Source: Peloplasma aerotolerans
Lineage (GTDB): Bacteria > Bacillota_I > Bacilli_A > Acholeplasmatales > Acholeplasmataceae
Reading direction: 5' to 3'
Assembly (NCBI RefSeq): GCF_030012175.1
Contig: NZ_JASCXW010000001.1
Location: forward strand, 62,001-126,000
DNA length: 64,000 nucleotides
Shown here: in pieces, positions 38,931 through 43,386 of the stretch
Layout: each line of letters starts with the position of its first letter
Position numbering within the stretch: position 1 is the stretch's first letter
Program-made: the position numbers and the translations under genes
The notes under the pieces: model-generated
Seen by the model: only the letters and a program-made list of their open reading frames with translations
Database searches by the model: none
What the model was told of the DNA's origin: nothing

Positions 38931-38955
38931 AAAAAAATAGAGTTAAAAACTCTAT
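38931..38955 (-). terminator. Terminator of the CNNM/CorC gene pair
   Basis: ATAGAGTT (38937-38944) and AACTCTAT (38948-38955) form a stem. On minus a T run follows (A at 38931-38937). It overlaps the stop of the second gene of the pair. Confidence 0.75.
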
Positions 38956-40220
38956 TCTTCCATATTTTCCTTTGTTTTAGGTAAAACTTCTATATTAACT
39001 TCAAGAACTCTTTTCGTATCTGCACTTGTCACTGTAATCTTGAAATTTTTATACTCAAACATATCACCAATAACTGGAATTCTTCCTAACTCATCAAGAA
39101 CCCAACCGTTAACTGTAGAATATTCTAACTCGTCTTCGTCTTCATCGATATGGAGCTGCTCGAATACATCTTCTAGATCAGCTGTTCCCTTAACTCGATA
39201 ATTGTTTTCATCAATTTCATTTATTTGTTCGACAATTTCATCATGCTCATCCCAAATATCACCAACAATTTCTTCTAAGATATCTTCCATTGTCACGACA
39301 CCTAGCGTTCCCCCAAATTCATCTTTTACAATTGCCATATGTGATTTATGTTCTTTAAGCATTTCTAATAAATTCGTAACACGCATATATTCTGTAACAA
39401 AAACTGGAGGTTTTATAATCGAATCTAGTGGTTCTTTATCGATTAAAACTTTATTATAGTAATCCTTATGATTGATTGTTCCAACAATATGATCGATATT
39501 GGTCCCATATACTGGTAATCTAGAATACCCTGAATGTTTAAATGCATGAGTTATTTTTTTATAATCATCTTTTTCATTCACAGCAATAACTTTAACCCGT
39601 GGAGTGAAAATATCTTCTACTTTTAAATCATCAAAATCGATAACACTACGAATTAACTCACCTTCGTTTTCGTTAATCCCACCTTCTTGTTGAACTTCAG
39701 ATACATAAGTTAAAAGTTCATCTTCAGTAATAGCCGGCTCTTTCTTAAATTTAAACCATTTATTCATTAACTTCTGAATTAAGCCAAAAATTAAGTTTAG
39801 CGGCATTAAGAGATAGATAAAAAACACTAAAATTGGTGTCACTGCAATCGCAAATTGTTCTGGCATTTTTTTAGCAATACTTTTTGGTGTTATTTCACCA
39901 AAAATAAGAACTAATGTTGTCATAACAGCTGTAGAAATGGTTACACCTGCATTTCCCCAATATTGAACAAATAACACTGTAGCAAGCGATGCAGCAGCAA
40001 TATTTACGATATTATTTCCGATTAAGATTGTTGTTAATACTTTCTCAAAATCATATGTTAAAGCTAAAGTTTTATTAGCTCTATGTTCTTTATTTTGAAT
40101 GCGATGTTTCAATTTAATAGGATTTAGTGATGAAAAAGCTGTCTCAGTTGCAGAAAAAAATGATGACAACAAGATCAATACTGCAAGTATACCTATTTTT
40201 ATAAACTCTTCTTTACCCAT
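38952..40220 (-). CDS. CNNM/CorC-family membrane protein (second of a pair)
   Basis: A 422-residue protein with the HlyC/CorC (CNNM) layout. An N-terminal DUF21 domain with three to four helices starts with the SATETAFSSLNPIKL motif. Two CBS domains (about residues 200-325, with FTPRVKVIAV and KDEFGGTLGVVTMEDILEEIVGDIWDE) and a C-terminal CorC_HlyC domain (IPVIGDMFEY) follow. The family is linked to Mg2+/Co2+ efflux or Mg2+ homeostasis. It lies 11 bases after its paralogue and is co-transcribed from the leader region upstream of that gene. The CBS pair probably binds Mg-ATP, as in other members. Confidence 0.9.
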   Translation of the reverse strand: MGKEEFIKIGILAVLILLSSFFSATETAFSSLNPIKLKHRIQNKEHRANKTLALTYDFEKVLTTILIGNNIVNIAAASLATVLFVQYWGNAGVTISTAVMTTLVLIFGEITPKSIAKKMPEQFAIAVTPILVFFIYLLMPLNLIFGLIQKLMNKWFKFKKEPAITEDELLTYVSEVQQEGGINENEGELIRSVIDFDDLKVEDIFTPRVKVIAVNEKDDYKKITHAFKHSGYSRLPVYGTNIDHIVGTINHKDYYNKVLIDKEPLDSIIKPPVFVTEYMRVTNLLEMLKEHKSHMAIVKDEFGGTLGVVTMEDILEEIVGDIWDEHDEIVEQINEIDENNYRVKGTADLEDVFEQLHIDEDEDELEYSTVNGWVLDELGRIPVIGDMFEYKNFKITVTSADTKRVLEVNIEVLPKTKENMEE

Positions 40221-40231
40221 AATACCTCACT

Positions 40232-41539
40232 CTACAATGCATCATTGCTATCTTCAAAGATTTCTGGTCTTGTAACTTTTATCTTAGAAATCACTTTATC
40301 TTCTGCTTTAATCACTTCAAATGTAAACTGATTATATACGATTGATACATGCTCATTTTCTTCAGGAAATCTTCCTAACTGCCCTAACATAAAACCACTT
40401 AATGTATCATAATCATCGACTGGTAGATTCGCATCTAAGAAATCTTCAGCGTCATGAATATTGATTAACCCATGAATTTCATAAACTAAATCATCAACTT
40501 GTTTAATCTCATCTTCATCAATATCGTACTCATCAAATATATTACCAACGATTTCTTCTATTAAATCTTCAATCGTTACAATACCTGCCGTCCCACCATA
40601 TTCATCAAGTACAATAGCGATATGGTTTTTTTGCTGTTGCATTTCTTTAAAAAGTTCACTTGTATTTTTTGATTCAGGAATAAAATAAGGTGGTCTAAGT
40701 AATGCTCTAATTGAAAATGTTTCTTCATTGTTATCTATGTATTTAAGTAAATCTTTAACGTGCAAAGTTCCAACAATATGATCGATATCTTTCTCATACA
40801 CTGGAAATCTTGTGAATTGCTCCTTACTTACATATTCAAATAATTCCTTTTTAGTTGCATTAACATCTAATGCAGATATTTCAGTACGATGTGTCATAAT
40901 ATCATCGACATCAGTATCACTGAAATCAAATATATTTTGAATCATTTCACTTTCTTGTTCATCGATATTTCCGGTTTTACTACTTTCCTCAACAATTGTT
41001 CTAATTTCTTCTTCAGTAACCGTTCTAGTCCCTTCGTTTGGTGCCAATCCAACTAACCGACCTACAAGGCTTGAAAGCTTGTCAAGAACCCAAACAAACG
41101 GTGAAATAAATTTAGTCATTGAAGTGACAAAACCAATCGTTCCATAAGCGATTTGATTAGGGTATTTATTGGCTAATCTTGTTGGAATCATTTGACCCAA
41201 AACAACGTGAAAAACAAGCAATATCAAAGCTATAATTGTAATAACTAATGGCTCAACAATCGGGTTCGTTACATTAAACCAACTGATAACATGAAGACTA
41301 AATGTATCTAAGGCAATCGCACCATTAACAATGGCTATTAATGTTATAAGAACTCTTAACGTTGTAATATAACTTTTAGGGTTTTCTGTATATCGTTGAA
41401 CTTTTAAAGCTCTTTTATTTCCGGTTTCTGCATCAACATTAACTTTGTTGTCACTAATCGCAACCAAAGCGACTTCTGATGCTGCAAAAACAGCAGACAT
41501 AATAATCAAAAAGAGCATGAAAACACTAGATGTTATCAT
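40232..41539 (-). CDS. CNNM/CorC-family membrane protein (first of a pair)
   Basis: A 435-residue paralogue of the next gene with the same layout. A DUF21 membrane domain opens with SAVFAASEVALVAISDNKV. The CBS pair includes MTHRTEISALDV and LDEYGGTAGIVTIEDLIEEIVGNIFDE. The C-terminal domain includes LDANLPVDDYDTLSGFMLGQLGRFPEE. It has one proline/asparagine-rich membrane loop (FNVTNPIVEP). It is the first gene of the pair and follows a 142-base leader with a terminator, so its expression is probably attenuated. AGGAGCATAT precedes the ATG. Mg2+ or other divalent cation transport is the family inference. Confidence 0.9.
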   Translation of the reverse strand: MITSSVFMLFLIIMSAVFAASEVALVAISDNKVNVDAETGNKRALKVQRYTENPKSYITTLRVLITLIAIVNGAIALDTFSLHVISWFNVTNPIVEPLVITIIALILLVFHVVLGQMIPTRLANKYPNQIAYGTIGFVTSMTKFISPFVWVLDKLSSLVGRLVGLAPNEGTRTVTEEEIRTIVEESSKTGNIDEQESEMIQNIFDFSDTDVDDIMTHRTEISALDVNATKKELFEYVSKEQFTRFPVYEKDIDHIVGTLHVKDLLKYIDNNEETFSIRALLRPPYFIPESKNTSELFKEMQQQKNHIAIVLDEYGGTAGIVTIEDLIEEIVGNIFDEYDIDEDEIKQVDDLVYEIHGLINIHDAEDFLDANLPVDDYDTLSGFMLGQLGRFPEENEHVSIVYNQFTFEVIKAEDKVISKIKVTRPEIFEDSNDAL

Positions 41540-41561
41540 ATATGCTCCTCACTCTCTAAAC

Positions 41562-41687
41562 AAAAAAAGACACCAAAAAAAGCGTCATGCTCATTCGTTT
41601 TAAGACTCGGATATATTGGATCGTCGATCCTACTACTGCAATCTTCCATTTTAGTTGTTCAGTCCTCCATCACATGGTGATAGATAT
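41562..41687 (-). ncRNA. Terminator-containing 5' leader of the CNNM/CorC operon (unassigned cis-regulatory RNA)
   Basis: Transcription from the promoter at 41688-41716 would give a leader of about 142 bases. It contains hairpins ATCAC/GTGAT (41669-41681) and GGATC/GATCC (41618-41630), a possible closing helix AGGACU/AGUCUU (41661-41666 with 41602-41607), and a terminator: GACGCT (41581-41586) pairs with GGTGTC (41569-41574), then seven T. It does not match the M-box, NiCo or yybP-ykoY consensus known to me. An unexplained 37-codon frame (41536-41649) crosses it. Confidence 0.5.
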
Positions 41688-41716
41688 ATCATACTATTTT
41701 TTGTCGTATAAGTCAA
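41688..41716 (-). promoter_or_regulatory. Promoter of the CNNM/CorC operon leader
   Basis: TTGACT (41711-41716 on minus), a 17-base spacer and TATGAT (41688-41693). It is divergent from, and about 50 bases away from, the promoter of the Mn2+ riboswitch. Confidence 0.65.
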
Positions 41717-41797: not shown

Positions 41798-41915
41798 ATG
41801 AAGGGGAGTAGTTAGCCCTAAATTAATCGTCAGTACGGTTGAAAAACCCGGTTAATTTCAAGTATACCTTGTAACGAGACCTTCAAGACTTTTTTCTTGT
41901 CTTGAATGGTTTTTA
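41798..41915 (+). ncRNA. yybP-ykoY (Mn2+) riboswitch with transcription-terminator platform
   Basis: The aptamer shows the class hallmarks: AAGGGGAGTAGTTA (41801-41814), a CGTCAGTACGG segment (41828-41838) and GTAACGAGACCTTC (41871-41884), closed by GAAGG with CCTTC. The expression platform is a hairpin TTCAAGAC (41882-41889) with GTCTTGAA (41899-41906), followed by a T-rich tail. The TTC of the aptamer closing helix is shared with the terminator stem. Mn2+ binding would therefore disrupt the terminator and switch the gene on, as known for this class. Confidence 0.9.
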
Positions 41916-41974: not shown

Positions 41975-42976
41975 TTGGATATATTTATTCATATTTTGTT
42001 TTTACTTGTGGGATTTGCTTTTCTAATAAAAGGTGCAGACTTCTTTATCGTCTCATCTGTGTCCATTGCAAAAAAACTAAATGTTTCTCCTTTAATTATT
42101 GGTTTAACATTAGTCGCATTTGGTACTAGTTTACCTGAGTTGGCAGTGAGTTTTGCAGCATCCATTTCAGCTAGAGCAGCTGGGACAACAGCTGACATTG
42201 CAATGGGTAATGTCATTGGTTCTAATGTTGCTAATTTAACGTTGATTTTAGGTTTCAGTGCGATTATGATGCCAATTGCTGTTAGAAAATCCATGCACAA
42301 ACAAGAGTTCCCATTTTTAGTTATTATTACGATATTAATCTCAGTACTTGCATTCTTTTTTCAAAGTGATGCACAAATCGTTTGGTGGGAATCACTAATT
42401 TTACTTTTATTCTTTGCTTTTTATATGTATTTAATGTTTAGAACTAAACGAACGCCTTCTGAGGTTGATGAGATACACGTTGTTGACACTAAAAAAGCTA
42501 TTGTTTTGTTACTTATTGGTTTAGGTGGTGTATCATTAGGCGGATATTTAGTTACTACTGGTGCTGAGTTTATAGCCATTGAACTCTTGGTTTCTGCATT
42601 TTCAATGAATATATCAAGAGCAACGACACTTGTTGGTTTATCGATTGTCGCATTAGGTACATCACTTCCAGAACTTGTAACATCCATTATGGCAGCTAAA
42701 AAAGGTGAAGGTGAAATTGCATTAGGTAACGTTATTGGATCGAATGTATTTAATACGCTTCTTATCGTAGGTCTAGCTGGATTAGTGACACCATTAGGGC
42801 TTAACAATGATGTCTTAATTGATACAGTCTTACTGATTGGTATAACTGCAATAACCATTTTCTTTTGTATCACGGGTAGTAAAATATCAAAACTTGAAGG
42901 TTATATCTTACTAGGTATTTACTTCTCATATATTTTGTATATCATCCTTAGAGCATTAAGTATTCTACCATTTTAA
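41975..42976 (+). CDS. CaCA-family Na+/Ca2+ (cation) exchanger, YrbG-like, Mn2+-riboswitch controlled
   Basis: A 333-residue membrane antiporter with two inverted halves. The alpha repeats appear as LVAFGTSLPELAVSFAA...GNVIGSNVANL in the first half and IVALGTSLPELVTSIMAA...GNVIGSNVFN in the second, the CaCA signature. Ten or so helices are expected. A longer frame begins within the riboswitch terminator at 41906. The true start is TTG at 41975, preceded by AGGAGG eight bases upstream. Riboswitch control points to Mn2+ (or Ca2+/Mn2+) efflux, not Na+/Ca2+ exchange alone. Its own terminator follows. Confidence 0.9.
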   Translation: MDIFIHILFLLVGFAFLIKGADFFIVSSVSIAKKLNVSPLIIGLTLVAFGTSLPELAVSFAASISARAAGTTADIAMGNVIGSNVANLTLILGFSAIMMPIAVRKSMHKQEFPFLVIITILISVLAFFFQSDAQIVWWESLILLLFFAFYMYLMFRTKRTPSEVDEIHVVDTKKAIVLLLIGLGGVSLGGYLVTTGAEFIAIELLVSAFSMNISRATTLVGLSIVALGTSLPELVTSIMAAKKGEGEIALGNVIGSNVFNTLLIVGLAGLVTPLGLNNDVLIDTVLLIGITAITIFFCITGSKISKLEGYILLGIYFSYILYIILRALSILPF

Positions 42977-43044: not shown

Positions 43045-43386
43045 GTCAATGTTCATAAGCCATGTTCTGTTCCCTTAAAAAGGGTGTGACCATTTATCTC
43101 TACATAAGTAGCGTATATCGATTTTGATTCATCTATATACGTGCCCCTACCAAATTTGGGTTGCTAGCTTGAGGGGTTTACCGCGTTTCATCTATTTATT
43201 TCTAAATAGCTCGTCTCTGTGGCACATTAAGTCTAGATCATAGTTTCCCTTAGATCATCGATCGCCGTTACGATTTCTCGTACCCTAGGTTATGATTTCC
43301 CTAGGCACAAACACTACATCCATCTCAGGATGTGCTAGCATGGACTTTCCTAACCTGTTAAAACAGGCTCGATCACTTCCACTGAC
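43045..43386 (-). ncRNA. rnpB: RNase P RNA, bacterial type B
   Basis: The minus strand shows the universal RNase P core: AGGAAAGTCCATGC near the 5' end, GTAGTGTTTGTGCC, GTGCCACAGAGACGA, AACGCGGTAAACCCCTC, CCCAAATTTGGTAGGGG and ACATGGCTTATGAAC at the 3' end. These match the Bacillus-type (B) RNA. The ends are set by P1: GTCAGTG (43380-43386) pairs with CATTGAC (43045-43051). The total of about 342 bases is shorter than the roughly 400 of Bacillus, chiefly in the 3' half. A TATAAT box (43393-43398) and a terminator flank it. It is the catalytic subunit for tRNA 5' maturation. Confidence 0.95.

Follow-up and report, generated by a model that had tools for sequence, protein, structure and literature searches.

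Organization of the CNNM/CorC-type operon and its leader

The window analyzed here is a 64,000-nt stretch of the Peloplasma aerotolerans contig NZ_JASCXW010000001.1 (positions 62,001 to 126,000), and positions are counted from its first letter. On its minus strand lie two genes of one operon, the first at 40232–41539 (Pfam CNNM, 7.1e-39), which is taken as the controlled gene, and the second at 38952–40220 (Pfam CNNM, 1.8e-50); both encode CNNM/CorC-type transporters with CNNM, CBS and CorC_HlyC domains, confirming the divalent-cation protein pair that an initial annotation of this DNA had placed here. The promoter TTGACT-17-TATGAT claimed by that annotation was read at 41716–41688 (minus strand), and TTGACTT...TATGATA recurs when leaders from other genera are aligned. 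The leader is ~142 nt, the length given before, and leads to the CNNM start codon at 41539. It is spanned, again as annotated, by a 37-codon upstream open reading frame (uORF) at exactly 41649–41536 (minus strand), which encodes the leader peptide MEDCSSRIDDPIYPSLKTNEHDAFFGVFFCLESEEHI and whose TGA overlaps the CNNM ATG (ATGA).

The uORF begins with MEDCSSRIDDP in the window, a form of the conserved peptide core MED-x-SSR-I-D-D-P (codons 1–11, 41617–41649, minus strand) that was used for the pN/pS test below and that has AGG as codon 7. Inside the core, codons 7–11 could form a small hairpin, GGAUC-GAC-GAUCC (41618–41630, minus strand). Further downstream the uORF contains an intrinsic terminator (41562–41586, minus strand), a terminator-like hairpin with its stem at 41586–41569 and a T7 (U7) tail at 41568–41562, where the earlier claim had put it; terminator-like sites numbered 9 in the 5-kb region vs. 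1.7 in shuffles. The Shine–Dalgarno sequence of the CNNM gene, GAGGAG, was found by direct reading within the last codons of the uORF (41545–41550, minus strand). Judged from sequence, an attenuator arrangement appears to be present, that is, a predicted terminator between promoter and gene that is overlapped by a conserved coding frame. The segment CTTTTTTTGGTGTCTTTTTTTG (41562–41582, minus strand) holds two T7 tracts and is nearly invariant across genera, while termination needs the second tract only.

The uORF had been described as lacking a Shine–Dalgarno sequence, which is incorrect, as GGAGG lies at 41668–41664 (minus strand), 14 nt 5′ of its ATG. This spacing is 12–14 nt in most relatives, compared with 4–10 nt for the other strong Shine–Dalgarno sequences of the window, and such a conserved poor spacing (41664–41668 and its counterparts in relatives) is an odd feature of the uORF. 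Genetic code 4 was ruled out by long genes free of in-frame TGA. An extension of the uORF from the ATG of ATGGAGG was also rejected, being in frame in some relatives only, out of frame in others, and blocked by a TGA in the window. Likewise rejected was a peptide–CNNM fusion by programmed −1 frameshifting at the T7 tracts, since a CNNM-frame stop lies between tract and start (TGA at −12 in the window; L005 and L009 by eye).

Selection on the uORF and its specificity for CNNM genes

The pN/pS of codons 1–11 in 33 leaders was 0.26 in frame vs. 1.07 and 0.83 in the shifted frames. In the same leaders Ser4 alternates between AGC and TCA, and Asp and Glu interchange at codons 3 and 9. The terminator part (codons 23–30) showed a pN/pS of 1.28 with no frame preference, and two groups, L010 and g14, are frame-shifted there, the uORF still reaching CNNM. 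Conservation as a peptide is confined to the first ~14 residues; the second half is terminator code and is missing in genus g2.

Using as criteria a length of at least 14 codons and an end ≤20 nt from the CNNM start, ATG-[DE]-[DE] uORFs touching the CNNM start were found at 55 of 66 CNNM loci vs. 0.20 expected from order-1 shuffles, with the caveat that the genomes are related and the counts not independent. No overlapping uORF with an ATG-[DE]-[DE] start was found for the other window genes examined (0/51). Some overlapping small frame precedes 25 of 52 window genes, the two-acidic start occurring before CNNM only; overlap alone being common, the distinctive feature is the acidic, conserved start. 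Consistently, the uORFs carry a mean of 3.4 D/E in residues 2–12 vs. 1.1 in window proteins, and their acidic and Pro residues fall in the first ~10–15, with DDP or EDP among the early residues of most.

When 84,980 species genomes were scanned with the pattern ATGGARGANNNNAGYNGTAGGNTCGANGATCC, it was found in 26 contigs, all titled Acholeplasmataceae, Acholeplasma, Acholeplasmatales, Tenericutes, Mycoplasmatota or Bacillota. A CNNM gene lies downstream in all 26 (24 by tblastn and 2 by direct reading), usually 107–110 nt past the uORF ATG. For L161, apparently the contig of G029, the 84 nt obtained does not measure the real spacing, as only the second piece of a two-piece CNNM match was used (compare −113 for L095), and the 170 nt of L157 depends on the choice of CNNM start. 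The uORF DNA pattern was absent from viral contigs.

The initial annotation had offered a leader-peptide system as one option, and this option is supported: the peptide is conserved, its own reading frame bears the mark of purifying selection, and the uORF nearly always abuts the CNNM start. We consider it nearly certain that the uORF is a genuine conserved coding element, and quite likely that it controls CNNM in cis.

Distribution of the uORF among relatives

The leader DNA is conserved in 20/20 genomes of the genus and in many of the family, and nearly every CNNM orthologue whose upstream region was read is preceded by a uORF that stops at the CNNM start or close to it. Homologues of the form MED/E-x-SSR-I-D/E-DP precede orthologous CNNM genes in most genera of the Acholeplasmatales-type family. 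In detail, genera g1, g4, g10, g12, g13 and g15 share ME[DE]-x-SS-R-I-[DE]-D-P...AFFGVFFC with small variations, genera g3, g5, g8 and g9 have acidic Ser-rich variants, and the variant uORFs of g6 and g14 still run through a U-tract. In genus g2 the uORF, M[ED]D-x-SSGQRT...[DE][DE]P, has no terminator and runs straight to its stop on CNNM, one such terminator-less uORF being MEDSSSGQRTTLSDDPHEGVTF of the g2 genome G005, while the phytoplasma-like genus g11, with genomes of 0.5–0.9 Mb, carries MDDSDS... or MENDD.... Beyond this family the uORF occurs in families f5, f12, f9 and f22. Another family of the order has MEESNRLIEDP and MED[IF]PSYRC, and weaker cousins precede CNNM in other families of the class, where uORFs such as MDDSCCNRNL, MKDSSDEDSKGDP, MSDEGSGERR and MSDDGSDERK were found. 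At locus L185 of family f22, the uORF MNDGDSSHNVIFKT is followed after its stop by a separate strong intrinsic terminator before CNNM; this uORF starts ~7 nt past a TTGACA-TAGAAT promoter and may be leaderless.

NCBIfam and Pfam hold no family for the uORF peptide. No published report of a CNNM-linked uORF was found in the leader-peptide, Mg2+ exporter and Acholeplasma literature, subscription papers being largely outside the scope of that search.

Structure of the leader RNA

A metal-sensing riboswitch, to which the reading frame would be incidental, was the other option of the initial annotation, and it would suit a terminator ahead of a cation-transporter operon as well as the conserved synonymous sites and the GGAUC-GAN-GAUCC hairpin. 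The accompanying statement that the leader matches no known riboswitch class was borne out, as no Rfam family matched the leader, whether the gathering score or E ≤ 10 was the cutoff, and none reached the gathering score at ten related loci. The defined hairpins that had been ascribed to the leader were not recovered: the folding of the whole leader is on a par with that of shuffled sequences (z = −0.77), and z is +0.16 when the terminator is left out. In 26 aligned leaders, 0 pairs were changed on both sides. The small hairpin is paired in 99% of cells without compensatory change, the terminator shows one-sided G-U changes, and the two together are paired in 94.6% of cells vs. 43–52% when slid. 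In relatives the partner of GGUGUCUUU moves with the terminator pairing retained, and where AAAGACA is lost, as in some of them, another arm pairs with GGUGUC. The RNA core and the terminator are both gone in genera g2, g3 and g5, which keep the uORF. As to conserved structure in homologous leaders, on which the annotation had staked its metal-sensing RNA, none was found for an aptamer, whereas that of the terminator is retained. Given no covariation, folding at chance level, no Rfam match, and genera that retain the uORF without terminator or hairpin, the riboswitch reading is rejected in favor of the leader peptide; we regard a metal-sensing riboswitch as highly improbable.

No M-box was found with the Rfam model in the 20 genomes of the genus, an absence by model that is not proof, as the possible miss of RF00080 next door illustrates. 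There, the divergent gene at 41975–42976 (plus strand) is of the calcium/sodium antiporter type (TIGR00367), and its leader (41800–41888, plus strand), GGGGAGUAG...CGUCAGUACGG...CCCGG...CGAGACCUUC, resembles by eye a yybP-ykoY Mn2+ riboswitch. Rfam RF00080 gave no match at 41800–41888 or in the 20 genomes of the genus. Of 61 relatives, 26 carry DNA 74–100% identical to this element, in many cases next to the CNNM gene but at further loci as well, and the element is possibly a divergent class missed by the RF00080 model. CNNM leaders of family f17 (L127, L136 and L176), which read ...ATCG[AT]CA[TC]CACGC...AGCCGG...AACGAGACTTTT... and carry a terminator, resemble the same yybP-ykoY-like element. 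A class B RNase P RNA lies beyond, at 43051–43383 (minus strand, 258 bits).

Synonymous constraint and the rare AGG codon

Synonymous sites of codons 1–11 are more conserved than those of CNNM (pS of 0.31 vs. 0.70), and this low pS points to some constraint at the RNA or codon level beyond the peptide. Arg7 is AGG in 32 of 33 leaders, AGG being 1.75% of the Arg codons in CNNM genes; Ile8 is encoded by ATC and Asp9 mostly by GAC. In hairpin-bearing genera the conservation of AGG, ATC and GAC could reflect the GGAUC-GAN-GAUCC hairpin. AGG is also found where the hairpin is absent (g2, g3, g6, f5 and f12), and it is possible that it is kept as a slow or drop-off-prone codon.

A model for leader-peptide control of the CNNM operon

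The model starts from what the locus holds, namely the uORF with its conservation and coding constraint, its overlap with CNNM, and the terminator. Since the acidic core lies upstream of the 5′ arm of the terminator and the uORF stop overlaps the CNNM start, completed uORF translation is predicted to turn the operon on. Ribosomes would load at GGAGG and translate the acidic, proline-containing MEDxSSRIDDP... with its rare AGG. A ribosome that moves beyond codon ~14 would cover the 5′ arm of the terminator (codons 17–19 in most relatives), so that RNA polymerase would read through, and on terminating exactly on the CNNM start codon it would re-initiate there. A pause or drop-off in the acidic core (codons 2–11), in contrast, would leave the 5′ arm free; the terminator would form, coupled initiation would not occur, and the operon would be off.

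Acidic residues near the N-terminus destabilize ribosomes and lead to abortion of translation, which is relieved by Mg2+, although not all acidic starts abort (PMC9718836; PMC11282234). Because Mg2+ relieves the abortion at acidic starts in E. coli, it is the most likely signal: at high Mg2+ the uORF would be completed and the exporter on, while at low Mg2+ the ribosome would be destabilized and the exporter off. We infer that translation is needed, that attenuation occurs and that Mg2+ is the signal, and Mg2+ transport by these CNNM proteins is assumed from homology. The acidic load of the uORF is moderate, usually 3–4 D/E, which counts against abortion. Also against the model, ribosomes running close behind RNA polymerase, as coupled attenuation needs, are to our knowledge not general in Bacillota. 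Overall, we lean by a narrow balance to the view that the CNNM operon is expressed only when translation of the leader peptide is completed, with Mg2+ as the likely signal; that Mg2+ would act through ribosome destabilization is more tentative and stands somewhat short of an even chance.

The same leader peptide could instead be a tRNA- or codon-sensing attenuator, responding for example to charged tRNA-Arg at AGG or to the Ser run, rather than an Mg2+ sensor. The near-fixation of AGG despite its rarity among the Arg codons of CNNM genes favors such a device, as do its recurrence in hairpin-less genera and in families f5 and f12 and the Phe-codon uORF attenuator proposed 5′ of aroF in Acholeplasma (PMC8632094). 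However, there is a single Arg codon and no run save 2–3 Ser, AGG is missing at this place in most phytoplasma-type and f9/f22 leaders, and the target gene is unconnected to Arg or Ser metabolism, so that we find codon sensing unlikely. A uORF that senses nothing and only couples translation, raising or lowering CNNM initiation by a fixed amount, would agree with the stop/start overlap being the most constant feature and with some genera having no terminator; it leaves unaccounted for both the strong conservation and acidity of the first residues and the placing of a terminator within the uORF in many genera, and we judge it rather unlikely. That the conserved product acts in trans as a small protein, e.g., a partner of CNNM, is scarcely credible, as its conservation stops after the first ~14 residues and the terminator-coding second half is frame-shifted in L010 and g14 and missing in g2.

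Acidic N-termini of CNNM proteins

Acidic starts were also compared at the CNNM proteins themselves. CNNM proteins preceded by the acidic uORF open directly into the membrane helix, while those without it mostly begin acidic, with starts such as MDPEPTS, MDVDPES and LDSIPxQ. D/E in residues 2–9 was found in 4 of 67 CNNM proteins with the acidic uORF vs. 48 of 55 without it. This distribution suggests that one acidic motif may be used in two arrangements, as a uORF or as the CNNM N-terminus. The two sets consist in part of different paralogues, however, come from related genomes and have start codons assigned by rule, and the acidic N-terminus of CNNM may just serve membrane topology, so that the contrast is to be taken as a lead rather than a test. 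As a speculative extension of the leader-peptide model, bacterial CNNM/CorC-type Mg2+ exporters might generally be gated by an abortion-prone acidic start, lying in their own N-terminus or in a uORF whose end falls on their start codon, with ribosome stability reporting Mg2+ and the exporter made only at plentiful Mg2+; the Acholeplasmatales, which apparently lack an M-box, would then represent the uORF form, in many genera with an added intrinsic terminator. We hold this generalization to be conceivable but doubtful.

Significance

Little is known of how bacteria switch on Mg2+ export, and a conserved CNNM leader peptide would supply a definite regulator for relatives of the mollicutes, some of them with phytoplasma-sized genomes. 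A paper of 2022 on MpfA, the exporter of B. subtilis, when searched for regulation, describes that of the importer gene (PMC8844918), and the authors of work on Salmonella CorC and MgpA term the regulation of those proteins unclear (PMC12421838). The rule could be tested elsewhere, by asking whether Mg2+ exporters begin with an acidic stretch of their own or are overlapped by a uORF that does.

Comparison with known systems

By analogy, the CNNM leader would be a variant, of opposite sign, of the abortion-prone acidic leader logic known from MgtL, the leader peptide of mgtA in Enterobacteriaceae. MgtL, with its EPDP motif, likewise has acidic and Pro residues early in a short frame before an Mg2+ transporter gene, and its proposed sensor is the ribosome itself, through intrinsic ribosome destabilization (PMC11282234), as we propose for the CNNM uORF. 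In MgtL, however, abortion turns an importer on via a Rho-dependent terminator, whereas completion of the CNNM uORF would turn an exporter on via an intrinsic terminator and stop/start coupling; the likeness is one of logic, and sequence homology is not claimed. The abortion logic serves importers in both MgtL and mgtQ (PMC11282234; PMC8092293). The latter, a uORF between mgtC and mgtB of Salmonella, aborts translation at Asp/Glu codons and controls an Mg2+ transporter (PMC8092293), but it has 8 codons, an importer as target and alternative stem-loops acting on the ribosome-binding site.

Closer to the exporters, CorC (YbeX) of E. coli and Salmonella has an N-terminal IRD sequence, an acidic Ser-rich start like that of the uORF: E. 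coli CorC begins with MSDDNSHSSD, and the f22 uORFs with MSDEGS or MSDDGS. The Salmonella authors inferred that CorC increases with high Mg2+, its N-terminus holding an abortion-type sequence (PMC12421838). The acidic start of CorC lies within the protein itself, while the CNNM leader has a separate uORF. The uORF YoaL overlaps the start of yoaE/mgpA, which encodes a CorC-domain transporter, and MgpA reaches its full level only when YoaL is translated (PMC12421838); YoaL differs in lacking this kind of acidic start and in its target, a TerC-type protein. Within the same bacterial group, uORFC-13-1 of the Acholeplasma aroF leader also combines a uORF with an intrinsic terminator (PMC8632094), although its target is an amino-acid gene and Phe codons are its likely signal.
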